Assembly: GCA_023485845.1 (NCBI GenBank)
Contig: JAMCZE010000001.1
Span: 1-62,455 of the forward strand
Length of the DNA stretch: 62,455 nucleotides
Direction of reading: 5' to 3'
Source of the DNA: Patescibacteria group bacterium
GTDB lineage: Bacteria; Patescibacteriota; Microgenomatia; JAMCZE01
The translations under genes were made by a program, and so were the position numbers. Of this stretch, positions 2,713 through 59,768 are shown one piece after another (the first letter of the stretch is position 1; each line of letters begins with the position of its first letter). A model generated the notes under the pieces. The model saw only the letters and a program-made list of their open reading frames with translations, had not been told where the DNA came from and made no database searches.

Positions 2713-3135
2713 ATGAGGATTGAACACGCGGAACTTTTAATAAAACGATCGGATAAAAAAATTGATGTTCTTGAGTTAAGAAGGGCAGATGGGGGATTCT
2801 TCACAGCAGTATATTTGCTGGCAACCAGCAACTGGATTGATGCCAATAATCCGATATATCAGGCAATGGGTTGTCTTGAGTGCCCATTGCTAAAGAGAAT
2901 TGCGGAAGAAGAAGCAAGATCGTATGGTAGCCCCCGGACAACAAAAAATGTATTGGGTAATGACAACGCAAGGGCTAGACCTTTTTCCTACAATAGCTCT
3001 GATGCTGGCAGGACCGTTTTACTTTTTGTGTGCGAGTTACTAAATCCAATGAATAATCATCCGGATTTGCGAAGTATTAGGCCTCCTTGTCTGAAAAAAA
3101 CAAAACTTAGTTTTGATTGTGAAGTTTGGGAGTAG
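2713..3135 (+). CDS. Hypothetical protein
   Basis: ORF with TATAAT box 6 nt upstream of ATG. Confidence 0.55.
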   Translation: MRIEHAELLIKRSDKKIDVLELRRADGGFFTAVYLLATSNWIDANNPIYQAMGCLECPLLKRIAEEEARSYGSPRTTKNVLGNDNARARPFSYNSSDAGRTVLLFVCELLNPMNNHPDLRSIRPPCLKKTKLSFDCEVWE

Positions 3136-3185
3136 GAAGATTATGATAAGCGGAAGTAATATAATCGGGCTGGAGGGGGTGAAGT

Positions 3186-3437
3186 ATGGCAGGCAGCAAA
3201 GTGGTTCATGTAAATGTTGGAACGGTTGAGAGTGTGCATCTATTGAGTGAGATAACTAGGGAACCCAATGATAAGGCGCGCGTTGTGGATGTCAGGTTAA
3301 CAAAAGGTGGTTTTGATCAAGTTAATATTGGTGCAAGAGCTGATATTAAACCTGGACAAAGAGTTCGAGTGGTAACACGGCAACGAATCGAAAATGGTGC
3401 AACAGTAATTTGGTCCAGCATTTGGCGAGCGAATTAA
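3186..3437 (+). CDS. Hypothetical protein
   Basis: ORF with SD GGAGGGGGTGAAG upstream of ATG. Confidence 0.55.
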   Translation: MAGSKVVHVNVGTVESVHLLSEITREPNDKARVVDVRLTKGGFDQVNIGARADIKPGQRVRVVTRQRIENGATVIWSSIWRAN

Positions 3438-3443
3438 TAGGAA

Positions 3444-3776
3444 CTATTTCTTTCTTGCTCTTTTGATCTCGTCAAGGAGTTCTTGTTTGGCGGCGGCGGC
3501 GGCGGCGCGGATAGCCGCTTCAATATCCACCGGGGTTTGCGCCTGCAGATAGTTCAGCAGTTTTGGGTCATGGGGGGCTTGGTGAAACTTCGTCAGAAAT
3601 TCTTCGTGTTTGGCAGCGGGCAGGTGGGTGAGAATCACGTCCAAAACCCGGTGGTGCAGAGTTTCATCAACCAATTCAATAAGCTCTTCCCGTTCTTCCA
3701 CCGCAATTTCGTGTTTGTCCAGAACGGCAATAACCTCTTCTCGCAGAACTAGATGGTCATAGAAAATCTTTACCAT
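3444..3776 (-). CDS. Conserved hypothetical protein (CPR-type, DUF5663-like)
   Basis: Small acidic helical protein MVKIFYDHLVLREEVIAVLDKHEI...; family name from memory. Confidence 0.5.
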   Translation of the reverse strand: MVKIFYDHLVLREEVIAVLDKHEIAVEEREELIELVDETLHHRVLDVILTHLPAAKHEEFLTKFHQAPHDPKLLNYLQAQTPVDIEAAIRAAAAAAKQELLDEIKRARKK

Positions 3777-3777
3777 A

Positions 3778-3838
3778 ATTTAAAATTCAAAAATCAAAAG
3801 TCAAAAATTCAAGTTAAAATTAAAAATTTTTACTTTTA
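3778..3838. repeat. AT-rich degenerate repeat tract (AAAATTCAAAAATCAAAAGTC words)
   Basis: aattcaaaaatcaaaagtcaaaaattcaagttaaaattaaaaattttta between two ORFs, running into the 3' end of the S23 gene. Confidence 0.7.
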
Positions 3839-4194
3839 AGTTTCATCACTCCGGCTGCGAGCATACTTGCGATTTCGGAAACTTCATCAATTAATGTTTG
3901 CGTGCCTTTTCCGGCAGCCAACCCGGAGTCCCTTAGTAATAATAACCAATATCTTGTTTCGTTGGCACTCTTAAGTGCTATTTCGTAAAACTTCTTGTAT
4001 TCAAGGCGAGAGCTGGCAGCGCCGCCTTCAATTAAATTTGCTCCTATTGACATGGCAGACCGAAGGAGTTGATCAGTAATAACCCAGGCGGATCTTTTCT
4101 GGGGCAGGCTGTCAACAAGGGTCATTGTTGCCAAACTAAATTTGAAGCAACGATCTTTCAAGTCACTTTTATATTTTGAATTGTAATTTTGCAT
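3820..4194 (-). CDS. Four-helix bundle protein (S23/23S rRNA intervening-sequence protein family)
   Basis: Pattern QLLRSAMSIGANLIEGGAASSRLEYKKFYEIALKSANETRYWLLLLRDSG matches the S23 family. Confidence 0.85.
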   Translation of the reverse strand: MQNYNSKYKSDLKDRCFKFSLATMTLVDSLPQKRSAWVITDQLLRSAMSIGANLIEGGAASSRLEYKKFYEIALKSANETRYWLLLLRDSGLAAGKGTQTLIDEVSEIASMLAAGVMKLKSKNF

Positions 4195-4216
4195 TTTAAA
4201 TTTTGAGTTTTGACTT
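4170..4216. repeat. AT-rich degenerate repeat tract, opposite orientation to 3778-3838
   Basis: atattttgaattgtaattttgcattttaaattttgagttttgactt overlapping the 5' end of the S23 gene. Confidence 0.7.
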
Positions 4217-4221
4217 CATGG

Positions 4222-5067
4222 TTACGCTTGCTTAGCAGTTAGTTCTTTATTGACTTCTATATTATATTCTAATGGCCCTAACGGGACTTCGTTGTTGGGG
4301 TCATCAAGGAAAAACATCACCACCGGATGATTTTGCATGCCGGTGTTGATGCCCAGATATTCCAGCACTTCCGGGGATCCCCCAAAATGTTTGCCGGTCC
4401 AATCGGCTGGCCCGGCATCAGCCACGGCGCTGACTATGGCTTTGCCGTTGGCAGGATTAACCACCACCATCCGGCGCCAGCGGTACCAGTCAACATAATA
4501 TTTGGTCCGCTCCCGCCAGTCCGGCAGGTAGATAATCGGGACAGCGACATAATATTTTTCCACCGTGGGATCGGTGACATAGCCCCAACCGCCCAGCCCC
4601 GGGGCCATGTTGGGCACGTTGTCGCCCGGGAAACGGGCCAGATGTTGTTCGGCCCCCATGCGGCCATAATCATGGGGCAGGCGGTTGCCGTCCAGTTCGG
4701 GAACAGCGTTCACGCCGAAAGCCGCTTTAATTTTTTGGCTGATTTCCTGTTCCTGGTCAGGCGAAAGGCTCCATTGGCCTTCCGGCGGCAAAATGTTTTG
4801 CCAGGTCAAATTATTGGCGGCAATGGTGGTGTTGGCCTGGGTCGGCAAACCAGTGTGGGCGGTTAACAAGAGGCTGCCAGCCAAAGCTCCGGAAGTCAGC
4901 AGCCGGGCGGCATGCTGGCGGATTTTGCCCGGGCGCAGTTTAAGGTGGCCGAAGAACTCGGCGGCGGTTGGGTGGCTGACCAGCAGCTTTTTCTCCGATT
5001 CAAAACTGCGCAGTTTAAGGCGGGCCCTTAAATTTTCGCTATCCAGTCTTGGTTTATTTTTGTCCAT
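4222..5067 (-). CDS. Secreted/membrane-anchored hypothetical protein with possible double-psi beta-barrel (RlpA/3D-like) C-terminal domain
   Basis: N-terminal hydrophobic segment; RRMVVVNPANGKAIVSAVADAGPADWTGKHFGGSPEVLEYLGI resembles DPBB consensus. Confidence 0.5.
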   Translation of the reverse strand: MDKNKPRLDSENLRARLKLRSFESEKKLLVSHPTAAEFFGHLKLRPGKIRQHAARLLTSGALAGSLLLTAHTGLPTQANTTIAANNLTWQNILPPEGQWSLSPDQEQEISQKIKAAFGVNAVPELDGNRLPHDYGRMGAEQHLARFPGDNVPNMAPGLGGWGYVTDPTVEKYYVAVPIIYLPDWRERTKYYVDWYRWRRMVVVNPANGKAIVSAVADAGPADWTGKHFGGSPEVLEYLGINTGMQNHPVVMFFLDDPNNEVPLGPLEYNIEVNKELTAKQA

Positions 5068-11839: not shown

Positions 11840-13391
11840 AATGAATATCTTTAATTTTCAACTGTAATTTATGATTGCCGTTAAAGGTGTCAAGGGCGAG
11901 GCAGTAGGCCAGGGAAATTTCCTGGCCTACTTTTAATTTAGCGGCCAGAGGCCCCTGGTTAAAAGCGATGGCGTCAAAACCGTCAACGGCTAATTTAAGG
12001 TGTTTACCGTCAGCCCCAACGGTTCGCAGATTTTGAATTGTCCCTTGGCTGGCAAAAACCGGTTCGGGGTTGCCGATGCCAAATGGCGCCAATCGCGCGA
12101 GATCATCATATAAATTCATGTTAATTGCTTGCAAATCAAGCCGACAGTCAACTCTAAGTGTTTTTTGCAGCATTTCCTCAGAAATTTTGTCCCGCGCTAA
12201 ATTTTCAATTTTTAATTTAAAATTTTCAATTTGCGCAGTCTCGATGGTGAATCCCGCCGCCATCGGGTGGCCGCCGGCGTTGATGAGCAAATTCTCAAAA
12301 GCGCGGATGGCCTCAATGATGTTAAAACCGGCAATCGAGCGGGCGGATGCTTTGCTGACGGTTTCTCCTTTGGCAATAACAATGGCCGGCCGGTAATATT
12401 TTTCCACTAACTTTCCGGCAATCAGGCCGATCACACCTTGGTGATAACTTTCATGGCTGATAACAATAAGACTTTCGTTAGCTTTTAGCTGATAGTTGGT
12501 AGCTTGCAGCGCGTGTTGGGTCTGTTCTTCAACCATTGTTTGCCGGTCTTTGTTTGTCTTATTAAGCAACGTTGCCAACTGTCTGGTCTTGTCGGCATTT
12601 TTGGTGCATAGGAGACGAAGAGCCGAGAGGCCGCTTTCGATGCGCCCGGAAGCATTAAGCCGCGGTCCGATTAAATAGCCAACTTCATAAGGCCCGACGT
12701 GTTCGATGCCGGCAATTTCAAAAAGAGCTTTAAGTCCCGGTCGGGTGGTTTTGTTTAGGGCCTCCAGGCCATATTTAACAATTGACCGGTTCACTCCGGT
12801 CAGCGGCATTAAATCGGTGATCGTGGCGATGGTGGCCAACTCAAGAAAAGGCTCTAGGTTATAGGTTCTAGTGACTAGGGACCTGGCCACAAAGTAGGCA
12901 ATGCCGCTGGCGCAAAGCTCGGTGGTATGAATGATTGCAAATGCTTTGGGAAGTTTCCTTGGCTTTTCATGGTGGTCGAGAATAATGACGTCAATGCCTA
13001 ATTTGTTGGCGTAGTCCACCGCGGCATTGGCGACGATGCCGGAATCCACAACAATAATCAGTTTTGCTTCCAGACTTTTTATTCCCTCGATGGAAAGTCC
13101 GTAGCCCTCTTTTTCCCGCTGGGGAATAAACGGCAGAGCTTTAGCCCCTAAACTATTTAGAGCTTCCCACATGATGGCCGTGGCACAGATGCCGTCGGCG
13201 TCATAGTCGCCATAAACCACGATTTTCTCTTCATTCTTGATGGCCTTCTTAATCCTGGCGATGGCCTTGACCAGCGGCAGTTTAAATTCCGGAAACGGCG
13301 GATTTAAAAACTCATTCTTATTTTTGATTTTTCGATTCGTCAACAAAATATCCAATATTTTGCCTTTTGAATTCAAGATGTTCCACTTCAT
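11832..13391 (-). CDS. recJ: Single-stranded-DNA-specific exonuclease RecJ
   Basis: YGDYDADGICATAIM, IILDHHEKP, GGHPMAAGFTI, GIGNPEPVFAS. Confidence 0.92.
   Translation of the reverse strand: MKWNILNSKGKILDILLTNRKIKNKNEFLNPPFPEFKLPLVKAIARIKKAIKNEEKIVVYGDYDADGICATAIMWEALNSLGAKALPFIPQREKEGYGLSIEGIKSLEAKLIIVVDSGIVANAAVDYANKLGIDVIILDHHEKPRKLPKAFAIIHTTELCASGIAYFVARSLVTRTYNLEPFLELATIATITDLMPLTGVNRSIVKYGLEALNKTTRPGLKALFEIAGIEHVGPYEVGYLIGPRLNASGRIESGLSALRLLCTKNADKTRQLATLLNKTNKDRQTMVEEQTQHALQATNYQLKANESLIVISHESYHQGVIGLIAGKLVEKYYRPAIVIAKGETVSKASARSIAGFNIIEAIRAFENLLINAGGHPMAAGFTIETAQIENFKLKIENLARDKISEEMLQKTLRVDCRLDLQAINMNLYDDLARLAPFGIGNPEPVFASQGTIQNLRTVGADGKHLKLAVDGFDAIAFNQGPLAAKLKVGQEISLAYCLALDTFNGNHKLQLKIKDIHYD
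12199..12232. repeat. AT-rich degenerate repeat inside recJ
   Basis: aaattttcaatttttaatttaaaattttcaattt; read in frame as IENFKLKIENL. Confidence 0.65.
12478..12510. repeat. AGCT-word degenerate repeat inside recJ
   Basis: ttagcttttagctgatagttggtagcttgcagc; read in frame as LQATNYQLKA. Confidence 0.55.
12851..12883. repeat. CTAG/GGTTCTAG-word degenerate repeat inside recJ
   Basis: gctctaggttataggttctagtgactagggacc; read in frame as RSLVTRTYNLEP. Confidence 0.6.
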
Positions 13392-15848: not shown

Positions 15849-16530
15849 AGATGGAGGAGTAGGTGCCGGAGAAAACGCCGATGAAAAGGGCAACTACAAA
15901 CCAGTGAATAGACTCTCCGCCAAAAAGAATCAGAGCCAATAGGGTTAAAAGCACGGTGATGGAGGTCATCAGTGATCGACCCAGCGTTTGCAGGACAGAT
16001 TCATTAACCACTTGTGTGAACGGGGCGGATGATTTTCTCAAATTTTCCCGAATCCGGTCAAAAACTACAATCGTGTCATGGACAGAAAAGCCAATGACGG
16101 TTAATAAAGCGGTGATAAACAGCGAGTCGATCTGCACGTTGGCAAAGTGGCCCAGCAGGGAGAAGATCCCCACCACGACCAGAACGTCATGAAGCAGGGC
16201 GACCACGGCGGCAATGCCGAATTTCCAGGGAGAGTAGGGTTTGGGGATTTCCCGGAAAGCGTAGGCAATATAGAGGATGATTGCCAGGCTGGCAACGCCA
16301 ACGGACTCCACGGCATTAATGGTGGTTTCCCGGCCGATCACCGGACCAACGGTGTCCGAGCGGATAATCTGTCCGGCCGCGTTTTTTTCCACCACCGTTC
16401 CCCCGGTGAAATCAATGGACGGCCGCAGTCCCCAGCGGGCCAGAGAGAATAACCCCGGCAAGATCACTAGTAGAGAAATTCCAAAAAACACGTATTTAAA
16501 TTTCATCAAATTAAACATTTTTTCAATCAA
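15802..16530 (-). CDS. secF: Protein translocase subunit SecF
   Basis: PSIDFTGGTVVE, FSVHDTIVVFDRIREN, RSLMTSITVLLTL. Confidence 0.92.
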   Translation of the reverse strand: MIEKMFNLMKFKYVFFGISLLVILPGLFSLARWGLRPSIDFTGGTVVEKNAAGQIIRSDTVGPVIGRETTINAVESVGVASLAIILYIAYAFREIPKPYSPWKFGIAAVVALLHDVLVVVGIFSLLGHFANVQIDSLFITALLTVIGFSVHDTIVVFDRIRENLRKSSAPFTQVVNESVLQTLGRSLMTSITVLLTLLALILFGGESIHWFVVALFIGVFSGTYSSIFNAAPLLVLWEEKKK

Positions 16531-16645
16531 TCCAATAATCCAATTTCCAATCTTTCAATGTCCAATCCTTAATGACCAATTAACAAATTGAGAATTGGTT
16601 GATTGGTGATTGATATGTATTGGATATTGATCATTGGTTTTATTG
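16524..16645. repeat. Degenerate CCAAT/ATTGG repeat tract forming a large imperfect inverted repeat between secD and secF
   Basis: CCAAT-type words in left half (ccaataatccaatttccaatc...) and ATTGG-type words in right half (attggttgattggtgattga...attgg). Confidence 0.75.
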
Positions 16646-17932
16646 AATTTTGTTGAATGTTCTCAACAGCGTTCTTGTAACGGTGACTGCGGTAAATAAC
16701 GAAACAATGATGCCGATGGCCAATGTCACGGCAAAACCGCGGACAGAGCCCGTGCCAAAATAGAACAGAATGGCACAGGTGATAAGCGAGCTGGCGTTAG
16801 AGTCACGAATGGAGGGAAAAGCCCGGGCAAAACCCAGCTCAATGGCAGCTATTTTGCTTCGGCCCCAACGAATCTCTTCTTTCATCCGTTCAAAAATGAG
16901 AATGTTGGCATCAACCGCCATGCCGATGGAAAGAATGAACCCGGCGATGCCGGCCAGGGTCAGGGTTACAGGAATTAATTTAAATATGGCTAACACCACC
17001 AGGGAATAAATCATTAAGGCTAGGTCGGCAAAAATTCCCAACCGGCCGTAGTTGGCAATCATAAACAGGGCGACAATGGTTAGACCCACCGTCCCGGCCA
17101 ACAGGCTTTTGTTAATCGAGTCTTGACCCAAAGTGGCGCCGATAGTGCGCTGTTCAATGACGTGGACGGGAGCGGGCAGGGCACCGGAATTAAGCAGGAT
17201 AGAATATTCCTTTGTTTGGGCAGTGGTGAAGTTGCCGGAAATAACCGGTTGGCCGTCAGTAATAGCGCTTTGAATGGTGGGTGCCATTAGGAGTTGGTCG
17301 TCAAGAAAAATTGCCAGATGCTTGCCCACGTCGCGGGTGGTGATGTCGGCAAACTTTTTTGTCCCTTCAGCATTAAAAGTTAATTGGATAATCGGTTCGT
17401 TGGTGCTTGATTGGAAGGCTGGCTTCGCTAGTTTTAGGTCTTTGCCTGACAAATCGGTTAATTTTTGATAAGGCCCGTAGAGCTGGGCGGAGATCGTGGA
17501 AATGTTTGCTGATTCACTGGCGCTGACTTCTTCTCGGAAGGTAAGATTGGCGGTTTTGCCGACCAAGTCAATGGCTTGGTTAACGTCAGTAATTCCGGCT
17601 AACTCCACAATCACCCGGTAATCATTGCCTGATTTACTACTTTGCACCACCGGTTCAGAAACACCAAAAAGGTTAACCCGCCGCTCGATAATTCCCTTAA
17701 GTGATTCCAGAGCGGTGTCCCGGTCGGCACTGTTCACTTGGCTCATGTCAGCCTGGAGCACTAGTCTGGTCCCTCCGGCCAGATCCAGACCTTTTTTTAA
17801 CTCCAGCACCCGGCCAAAAAAACTGGGAGTTGGTAATTCGTGTTTAAATATGGTGGCGTTAGTTGGCAAGTCAAAATAGACCGCGATGGCAGTTATAAGG
17901 ACAATAATGCCGATAAGGAAACGGTTGTTCAT
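16640..17932 (-). CDS. secD: Protein translocase subunit SecD
   Basis: KKGLDLAGGTRLVLQAD, GMAVDANILIFERMKEE. Confidence 0.93.
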   Translation of the reverse strand: MNNRFLIGIIVLITAIAVYFDLPTNATIFKHELPTPSFFGRVLELKKGLDLAGGTRLVLQADMSQVNSADRDTALESLKGIIERRVNLFGVSEPVVQSSKSGNDYRVIVELAGITDVNQAIDLVGKTANLTFREEVSASESANISTISAQLYGPYQKLTDLSGKDLKLAKPAFQSSTNEPIIQLTFNAEGTKKFADITTRDVGKHLAIFLDDQLLMAPTIQSAITDGQPVISGNFTTAQTKEYSILLNSGALPAPVHVIEQRTIGATLGQDSINKSLLAGTVGLTIVALFMIANYGRLGIFADLALMIYSLVVLAIFKLIPVTLTLAGIAGFILSIGMAVDANILIFERMKEEIRWGRSKIAAIELGFARAFPSIRDSNASSLITCAILFYFGTGSVRGFAVTLAIGIIVSLFTAVTVTRTLLRTFNKIQ

Positions 17933-20046: not shown

Positions 20047-20196
20047 ATGAAGCATCAAGGATATTGTGTTAAATGCCGAGCCAAAAGAGACATTACCGAT
20101 GGGAAAGAAGTGACTTGGAAGAACGGACGCCGCGCGTTTGTGGGCAAATGCCCAGTTTGCGGCACCACCGTTGCCCGTGTTTTGGGAAAAGCTTAA
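20047..20196 (+). CDS. DUF5679-like small zinc-ribbon protein
   Basis: MKHQGYCVKCRAKRDITDGKEVTWKNGRRAFVGKCPVCGTTVARVLGKA, two CxxC; SD GGGGGTGAAG; absent from ORF track. Confidence 0.85.
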   Translation: MKHQGYCVKCRAKRDITDGKEVTWKNGRRAFVGKCPVCGTTVARVLGKA

Positions 20197-20223
20197 ACTA
20201 GTGGCTAGTTACTAGTAGCTAGT
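20197..20223. repeat. CTAGT-word degenerate repeat
   Basis: actagtggctagttactagtagctagt directly after a stop codon. Confidence 0.75.
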
Positions 20224-20258
20224 AAAGAATCGTTCTTTTTAAGAACGATTCTTTTTTG
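20224..20258 (+). terminator. Intrinsic terminator
   Basis: aagaatcgttctt ttt aagaacgattctttttt perfect stem plus T-run. Confidence 0.9.
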
Positions 20259-50229: not shown

Positions 50230-50557
50230 TAAAATAGTGAAATTATATATCGACACATCATCAAACCAAAGAACCGTCGTTCGGCTAGGGGAGAGGGAAT
50301 TAGTGCAAAGCTCTCGCGCCTGGCACTCACAAGTCGTCTTGCCGATGATCAAGAAATTGCTAACAGCTAACAGCTGTCAGCTAAAAGCTATTGATGAAAT
50401 TGAAGTTAATCCTGGTCCTGGATCGTTCACCGGCTTGCGGGTGGGCGCCGCCATTGCCGGTGCTTTGGGTTATGCCCTAAAAGTTCCGGTTAACGGCCTT
50501 CGGTTTGACAAATCCCCTGCTTCGTACTATAGTATTAACTATGGCAGAAACGCTTAG
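50207..50557 (+). CDS. tsaB: TsaB-like protein, short (N-terminal domain only)
   Basis: LYIDTSSNQRTVVRL, VNPGPGSFTGLRVGAAIAGALGYAL. Confidence 0.75.
   Translation: MLSIISINKIVKLYIDTSSNQRTVVRLGERELVQSSRAWHSQVVLPMIKKLLTANSCQLKAIDEIEVNPGPGSFTGLRVGAAIAGALGYALKVPVNGLRFDKSPASYYSINYGRNA
50360..50391. repeat. AACAGCT-word repeat inside tsaB
   Basis: ctaacagctaacagctgtcagctaaaagcta; in frame LTANSCQLKA. Confidence 0.7.
50505..50533 (+). promoter_or_regulatory. sigma70-type promoter TTGACA-17-TATAGT, 7 nt before ATG, inside the tsaB 3' end
   Basis: ttgacaaatcccctgcttcgtactatagtattaactatg. Confidence 0.75.
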
Positions 50558-59182: not shown

Positions 59183-59768
59183 AATCTTCCGGGCGGGTGT
59201 ATTGGGGGTATTCATAAGCACGAGAGCCGGAGAGTAGGTAAGCGGGAGAGAAGGACTCAATTTCGGTAGCCTCAGGTTTTTCCAGAACTCCGGGAACAAG
59301 GCGGGTCACAGCGTCAACAATGACCATGGCCGGTATTTCCCCGCCGGTGAGAACATAGTCGCCAATGCTGATGCTTTCATCGACTAAGTGCTCCCGCACC
59401 CGCTCGTCAATGCCTTCATAGTGGCCGCAAATCAGAATTAATCTGTCTAGTTTTGAATATTCCCGGGCAATTGCTTGGGTAAACTTTTCTCCGCGGGGAT
59501 CAAGAAGGATGGTTCTTTGATTTCGGATTTCGGATTTCGGATTTCGGATTTTTTGTAAAGCGCGGTATATTGGTTCAATTTGCATAACCATGCCCACCCC
59601 TCCACCGTAGGGCCGGTCGTCAACCGTGCCCCGCTCGTCTGTTGCCCAGTCGCGCAGGTTGTGCAGGTTAATGGTGACTAACTTTTTATCCTGCCCCCGT
59701 TTAACGATGCTCTGGTCCAGCGGCCCAACAAACATTTCCGGAAAAAGAGTAATAATGTCAAAAGTCAT
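59055..59768 (-). CDS. trmD: tRNA (guanine-N1)-methyltransferase
   Basis: MTFDIITLFPEMF, DDRPYGGGVGMVM, ICGHYEGIDERV, SIGDYVLTGGEIPAMVIVDAV, VPEILLSGDHQKIAAWR. Confidence 0.95.
   Translation of the reverse strand: MTFDIITLFPEMFVGPLDQSIVKRGQDKKLVTINLHNLRDWATDERGTVDDRPYGGGVGMVMQIEPIYRALQKIRNPKSEIRNQRTILLDPRGEKFTQAIAREYSKLDRLILICGHYEGIDERVREHLVDESISIGDYVLTGGEIPAMVIVDAVTRLVPGVLEKPEATEIESFSPAYLLSGSRAYEYPQYTRPEDFKGWKVPEILLSGDHQKIAAWRKQASLKQKAAGQSQKTPVDN
59517..59557. repeat. GGATTTC tandem repeat inside trmD
   Basis: ttgatttcggatttcggatttcggatttcggatttttt; in frame KIRNPKSEIRNQR. Confidence 0.8.

Follow-up and report, generated by a model that had tools for sequence, protein, structure and literature searches.

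A small S23 gene between matched tandem heptamer tracts: a putative transposase-less mobile element in Patescibacteria and other bacteria

Introduction

Several bacterial systems frame a small gene with short repeats, or disperse such repeats around a genome, and each resembles in part the locus considered here: an S23-family gene flanked by two degenerate tandem tracts in a 62,455-nt stretch of a Patescibacteria group bacterium (assembly GCA_023485845.1, contig JAMCZE010000001.1; hereafter the window, meaning the whole stretch analysed). The nearest is the intervening sequence (IVS) in 23S rRNA of Coxiella and others, which, according to passages of one account (PMC4990558), is ~430 bp long, carries an open reading frame (ORF) of the same S23 protein family between inverted ends, and has been suggested to be mobile or selfish. 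An IVS, however, lies in 23S rRNA and has a plain, near-perfect stem, whereas the S23 elements described here lie between protein genes (the window copy does, and 0 of 40 other loci tested are in rRNA), have degenerate tandem 7-mers as ends, and exist in many copies and as gene-less derivatives. REPtrons likewise consist of one gene (RAYT) between short repeats (REP/REPIN), with gene-less doublets and solo repeats dispersed in intergenic regions; RAYT, however, belongs to the HUH tyrosine transposases and acts on GTAG-tagged palindromes (PMC3733652), while S23 is a four-helix bundle, no HUH domain is found in the window gene, and the repeats are tandem 7-mers of many, freely varying words. The Avd protein of diversity-generating retroelements (DGRs) has the same fold and a related profile but acts with a reverse transcriptase (RT) and a pair of template and variable repeats (TR/VR); S23 elements have neither, only the S23 gene lies between the window tracts, and the RT family RVT_1 is missing from most S23-bearing genomes. 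Miniature inverted-repeat transposable elements (MITEs) are short, carry no gene and retain the two ends of a longer element, as do some copies described below, but S23 elements encode no transposase, the defining gene of insertion sequences (ISs) and DNA transposons; their single ORF is S23.

The fifth relative is a set of repeats rather than a gene. Heptamer repeats of cyanobacteria, Xanthomonas and Beggiatoaceae (short tandemly repeated repetitive sequences, GGGAATC, TAACTGA) are dispersed, intergenic, period-7 tandem tracts; for those of Beggiatoaceae, cyanobacteria and Bacteroidetes a passage of PMC4679880 states that "no mechanism is evident", and those of Xanthomonas and Nostoc are described, in a part of PMC4692102, as generally unassociated with mobile elements. 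The published accounts, in the parts consulted, name neither an S23 gene nor a mechanism of spread, and no link between heptamer repeats and S23 genes was found in open-licence papers, where an earlier report may exist. The cyanobacterial plasmid S23 genes sampled here carry such tracts (e.g., GGGAACA in Nostoc), and the solved S23 protein Xcc0516 comes from Xanthomonas. The S23 gene and its two tracts appear to form an undescribed kind of element: it is built on an S23-family member, but the tests made here set it apart from IVSs, DGRs, REPtrons and ISs. We think it probable that this is a transposase-less mobile element whose S23 protein recognizes its repeat ends and which host enzymes move.

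The element in the window

The element and its surroundings are as follows.

3777 to 4221, minus strand: whole element (445 bp; tract, S23 gene, tract), between a 281-aa and a 110-aa gene that abut in relatives
4165 to 4216, minus strand: 5' tract (in gene sense), AAGTCAAAACTCAAAATTTAAAATGCAAAATTACAATTCAAAATATAAAAGT, period 7, reaching into the ORF start; its words recur in relatives at unrelated sites
3820 to 4194, minus strand: S23 (PF05635) gene, 124 aa, four-helix-bundle family (profile match; fold from a family relative)
3777 to 3842, minus strand: 3' tract, inverted relative to the 5' tract, period 7, immediately followed by the start codon (ATG) of the next gene
4222 to 5067, minus strand: upstream host gene, 281 aa, without a Pfam match (insertion context)
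3444 to 3776, minus strand: downstream host gene, 110 aa, without a Pfam match (insertion context)

The gene is assigned to S23/PF05635 by its profile score (80.9 bits against a cut-off of 33.8) and the fold of a modelled family member; this single ORF of the element has no other domain, and no transposase is encoded. An earlier note on this DNA, made from the sequence alone, had described the gene as bracketed by inverted degenerate tracts that enter both ends of the ORF, and this description holds: the words are AAAATTC, AAAAATC and AAAAGTC in the 3' tract and TTTTGAA and TTTTGAG in the 5' tract, the tandem period of both is ~7, and the arms at 3774–3814 and 4165–4205 are 71% complementary across 41 nt in inverted orientation. 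The note had also placed the same word family inside recJ. Period 7 is indeed present at 12197–12235, but no indel appears there when RecJ of three relatives is aligned, so the most likely reading of the segment is ordinary coding sequence rather than an inserted tract. Another period-7 stretch (GCTAACAGCTAACAGCTGTCAGCTAAAAGCTA, 50355–50390) lies within an apparent tsaB gene; by eye it brings no length change, and the reading frame may have absorbed it.

Insertion into a conserved gene junction

The earlier note had proposed that orthologous loci lacking the gene be used to define the insertion ends. Gene order (gltX-like, 281-aa, 110-aa) is kept in the class (Microgenomatia), and the 110-aa gene follows the 281-aa gene without S23 between them in 28 of 29 relatives. 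Spacing measured in 15 relatives shows the two genes overlapping or almost in contact (median gap ~-4 nt). In the window, the gap is 445 nt, exactly tract plus S23 plus tract. A second case comes from genus g20, in which one site holds two different S23 elements, differing in both protein and words, in genomes G019 and G039, and a short intergenic gap in G054, a congener without S23. In G039, a cluster of nested tracts stands directly behind a tRNA-like sequence, and G054 again has the exact empty site. Near the window insertion, at 984–2629, lies a serine recombinase gene (resolvase and recombinase domains), a possible integrative element, whose end overlaps a tRNA on the opposite strand (2559–2629).

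Transfer of the whole unit and gene-less copies

The source genome (883 kb) has five PF05635 matches, one under the family cut-off. Two further S23 genes, L003 and L001, have the same architecture with different words: the L003 tract word is AATTTGAAATTTG, and L001 has GAAAGTAAG-type tracts of period 8 that are not AT-rich. The presence of other words and another period in one genome indicates that period and word are properties of the individual element rather than of its genome; it also means that AT-richness, attributed to the repeats in the earlier note, is true of the window tracts but not general.

These elements move as units. L003 and L008, a locus in another genus, align (71% over 481 columns) across exactly the span of the unit, both outer tract ends included; beyond these ends homology ceases, and the flanks bear no relation to each other. 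S23 genes whose proteins are 57–76% identical to that of the window stand at unrelated sites in other families of the class, flanked by the same tract words, and S23 is closer to its window counterpart than is the host 281-aa protein: 76% against 44% in G013, 70% against 47% in G072, 68% against 50% in G053 and 64% against 50% in G115 (host identities refer to the aligned part only, in genomes where the protein was found). Beyond the class, one word family, AGCGTNTAGCGTNTAGCG, flanks S23 genes of Planctomycetota, Omnitrophota, Aerophobetes and Patescibacteria (loci L178, L203, L243 and L170), which hints at transfer between phyla.

Sequences with the ends and no gene are also found:

L133:18421-18513, L134:313-405, L137:11128-11220, L138:3516-3611, L138:15819-15911 and L143:11412-11504: gene-less copies of ~93 bp
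16524 to 16655 of the window, no strand assigned: two similar tracts in inverted orientation, CAATCAATCCAATAATCCAATTTCC ... GATTGGTGATTGATATGTATTGG, enclosing no gene, by appearance a gene-less derivative
20193 to 20224 of the window, no strand assigned: single intergenic tract of CTAGTAG-type units ahead of a strong hairpin, probably related

The source genome holds at least six of the ~93-bp copies, in which cassette positions 6–49 are joined to 379–445; like MITEs, they lack the gene and keep both ends of the window element. Empty sites, whole units elsewhere, gene-less derivatives and the greater number of tracts in genomes with S23 (below) together support well the candidate mobile cassette proposed in the earlier note.

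Could the tracts be regulatory sites instead? Tracts often end immediately ahead of start codons, a regulatory role has been suggested for TAACTGA repeats (in a passage of PMC4679880), and the S23 pentamer (below) is ring-like; a TRAP-like S23 ring might then bind period-7 units in mRNA leaders, and the scattered tracts would be its regulon rather than mobile copies. Such a regulator would need neither a matching 3' tract nor gene-less copies with both ends, neither homology that ends where the tracts end nor a separate word for each S23 gene of one genome, and we consider it improbable as a replacement for mobility, with which it is compatible; both could hold.

Period, matched words and orientation

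The association of tracts with S23 genes was measured in two sets: a class set of 109 S23 genes, compared with 242 non-adjacent control genes from the same loci, and a wider set of 96 genes (80 named-genome loci and 12 plasmid loci) from Bacteroidota, Planctomycetota, Omnitrophota, Desulfobacterota, Chloroflexota, Acidobacteriota, Clostridia, cyanobacterial plasmids and others, collected with a single S23 protein query and including some Patescibacteria that overlap the class set. In the class set, the best 35-nt identity at lag 7 is 0.627 in S23 flanks and 0.428 in controls (p 1.5e-34), with no comparable excess at lags 4–6 and 8–12; in the wider set, the values are 0.586 and 0.428 at lag 7 (p 1.5e-22) and 0.476 and 0.402 at lag 8 (p 3e-8). 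The best period over both sets (205 genes) is 7 in 154, 8 in 20 and 9 in 6. Period 8 clusters on the protein tree, with 11 changes against a shuffled mean of 20.2 and none of 500 shuffles as low, a clustering that near relatives help to produce.

The two tracts of an element also match each other. The inverted match between flanks has a median score of 20 for S23 genes and 10 for controls (p 6e-32) in the class set, and for 71 of its 109 genes the own downstream tract is within the top 5% of all loci's tracts. The 277 tracts hold 146 distinct words, which vary among elements yet agree across each S23 gene. When flanks are exchanged between elements whose proteins are 35–45% identical, the summed inverted score of own flanks exceeds that of the swapped combination in 2757 of 3000 pairs; own flanks still win by 966 to 138 (1149 pairs) at 55–65% identity, and the advantage is gone at 80–99% (9 against 17). 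Pairs share members, so these counts are of non-independent events. That own flanks beat swapped ones indicates that words turn over, on both sides simultaneously. A strict conserved core within the repeat unit was considered and is weak (variance of mismatches 0.72 against 0.59), and Rfam Acido-Lenti-1 and Flavo-1 matches beside two S23 loci are not composed of such repeats.

Slippage has been suggested before for heptamers (cited in a passage of PMC4679880), and the window tracts are AT-rich, as simple repeats arising in AT-rich spacers that happen to contain S23 genes would be. An excess confined to lag 7 in the class, and to lags 7 and 8 in the wider set, is not what slippage or base composition would leave; GC- and GA-rich tracts occur besides AT-rich ones, control genes lack tracts, own tracts match better than others do, and density differs between genomes with and without S23. 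We regard this origin as very unlikely. The enrichment around S23 genes that the earlier note proposed to look for is therefore present, and composition alone does not account for it.

Of 226 loci scored for orientation, the tracts are inverted at 138, direct at 13, ambiguous at 12 and unclear at 63; the direct and ambiguous loci rule out strict inversion as a rule. S23 itself is co-directional with both neighbours in 137 cases and opposed to both in 5, as expected if expression is by read-through or if the event involves RNA. S23 genes are found within known operons, in one arrangement between cas6 and cas4 and in another between cas10 and a Cmr3-family gene; no S23 match was found in phage records. 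Sense orientation, inverted ends and a shared protein family would all suit an IVS-like RNA element, whose tracts pair in the transcript to be cut by RNase III, as the 28-bp terminal stem of the Coxiella IVS is (per a passage of PMC4990558), the element being tolerated because it leaves the mRNA. The window tracts do pair in the predicted fold, but its energy is no better than that of shuffles (z -0.81); the tracts are direct at 13 loci, the rRNA location is absent at all 40 loci mentioned above, and spread and period 7 would be left unexplained by RNA cutting alone, to which we give little credence.

S23 presence, tract density and reverse transcriptase

Away from S23 genes, eleven S23-bearing genomes contain 97 period-7 tracts in 848 kb (11.4 per 100 kb), and eight S23-less genomes contain 4 in 400 kb (1.0 per 100 kb), as raw genome counts with kinship ignored; the association of S23 presence with tract density is strong but not absolute. 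In g20, 120 kb of G039 hold 36 tracts. The survey of the source genome, which covered 449 kb or about half of it, found 41 period-7 tracts and 0–8 at every other lag from 4 to 13; 27 of the 41 share their words with two S23 elements of the same genome. A near-perfect GATTTCG tract (4.7 units; window 59508–59559) has a word unlike all S23 elements sampled in the genome.

The earlier note had seen no RT in the window. One exists elsewhere in the genome, but none of the RVT_1 family is needed: S23 is carried by 165 of the 226 RT-less genomes of the class and by 44 of the 54 that have RVT_1, and dependence on an RT of that family is rejected on these counts. The genomic RT belongs to locus L005 (G000:C11:10479-13775), which resembles a DGR, with an RT gene at C11:11133-11753 (minus strand), a weak PF05635/Avd-like match at 11979-12275 and repeated TR/VR-like stretches, CAGAGCGACCGCCTATAT...

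The S23 protein and a model of movement

What, then, could move an element with no recombinase of its own? For the S23 protein of L001, a confident four-helix bundle is predicted (pLDDT 97.6), and the model matches Xcc0516 (2gsc, TM score 0.94), BT_0352 (2rld) and Avd (4dwl, TM score 0.81), so that the relation between S23 and Avd, stated in the earlier note, holds at the level of the predicted fold. Each of the entries 2gsc and 2rld contains five chains, and the title under which 2gsc was published, as cited in part of PMC10053308, speaks of the quaternary structure of five four-helix bundles.

In the model that we favour, the S23 element is a ~450-bp unit, without a recognizable recombinase, that occupies the gaps between genes of operons, reads in the same direction as they do and probably owes its expression to read-through. 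S23, by homology a pentamer of four-helix bundles, would bind the 7- or 8-nt tandem units of its own end tracts, with several subunits on successive units, and bring the ends together; the element itself and, in trans, gene-less copies would in this way become substrates of recruited host replication or repair enzymes, which would carry out the movement. The two tracts would be renewed jointly, either because one is copied from the other or because both are kept to one binding word; each element would then keep a similar pair, while drift of the word sets elements apart from one another. Binding, catalysis, the need for S23, the involvement of host enzymes and the form that moves, DNA or RNA, we infer; the part in the spread of the repeats that the earlier note assigned to S23 fits the evidence for mobility, and participation itself belongs to this inferred portion.

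Several observations weigh against the model. S23 has no known enzymatic domain. No target-site duplication was seen at gene-less copies or in two empty-site comparisons, in which the genomes compared are diverged. About a quarter of S23 genes lack a clear tract pair at the threshold used, and the 13 direct loci do not fit inverted ends. Among the tracts sampled in the source genome, 14 of 41 match none of its S23 elements, and G054, without S23, has 25 tracts in 800 kb, several poly-A/T-like and the rest mostly clustered. Movement is read from sequence comparisons, and binding is a proposal. Two observations stand beside these: a ~20-bp direct repeat, CCTAAYCAGAGATGGGATTG, flanks an S23 element on a KSB1 contig (L186, ~2850–3470) and could be a target duplication or an older repeat; and the period-7 clusters of G054 (C1, ~50, 65 and 298 kb) are perhaps remains of lost elements.

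The missing catalytic domain, the tract families without a matching S23 element in their genome and the few tracts left in an S23-less genome would also suit a passenger or accessory S23: the elements would be mobile, an unrelated enzyme elsewhere in the cell would mobilize the tracts, and S23 would aid persistence, for example by binding the RNA of the copies and making insertion tolerable. A passenger role is rather unlikely, given that tract density and S23 presence go together, that the period follows the S23 lineage, and that S23 is the sole gene carried. Recognition of the ends by S23, with movement by host enzymes, remains the reading that we prefer.

Significance

A broader proposal follows, which we find quite possible without calling it probable: S23 genes may form the centre of an undescribed and very widespread class of bacterial mobile elements, whose pentameric protein, not itself an enzyme, recognizes tandem 7-, 8- or 9-nt units, the unit length being set by the protein, the word free to drift and both ends renewed together; such elements may be the source of the unexplained heptamer repeats of cyanobacteria, Xanthomonas, Beggiatoaceae, Bacteroidota and Patescibacteria. 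If true, a large family of orphan proteins would gain a function, dispersed repeats that lack an evident mechanism (PMC4679880) would gain a cause, and there would be an example of a mobile element that relies on no recombinase of its own to move and is bounded by a repeat period instead of a fixed sequence.
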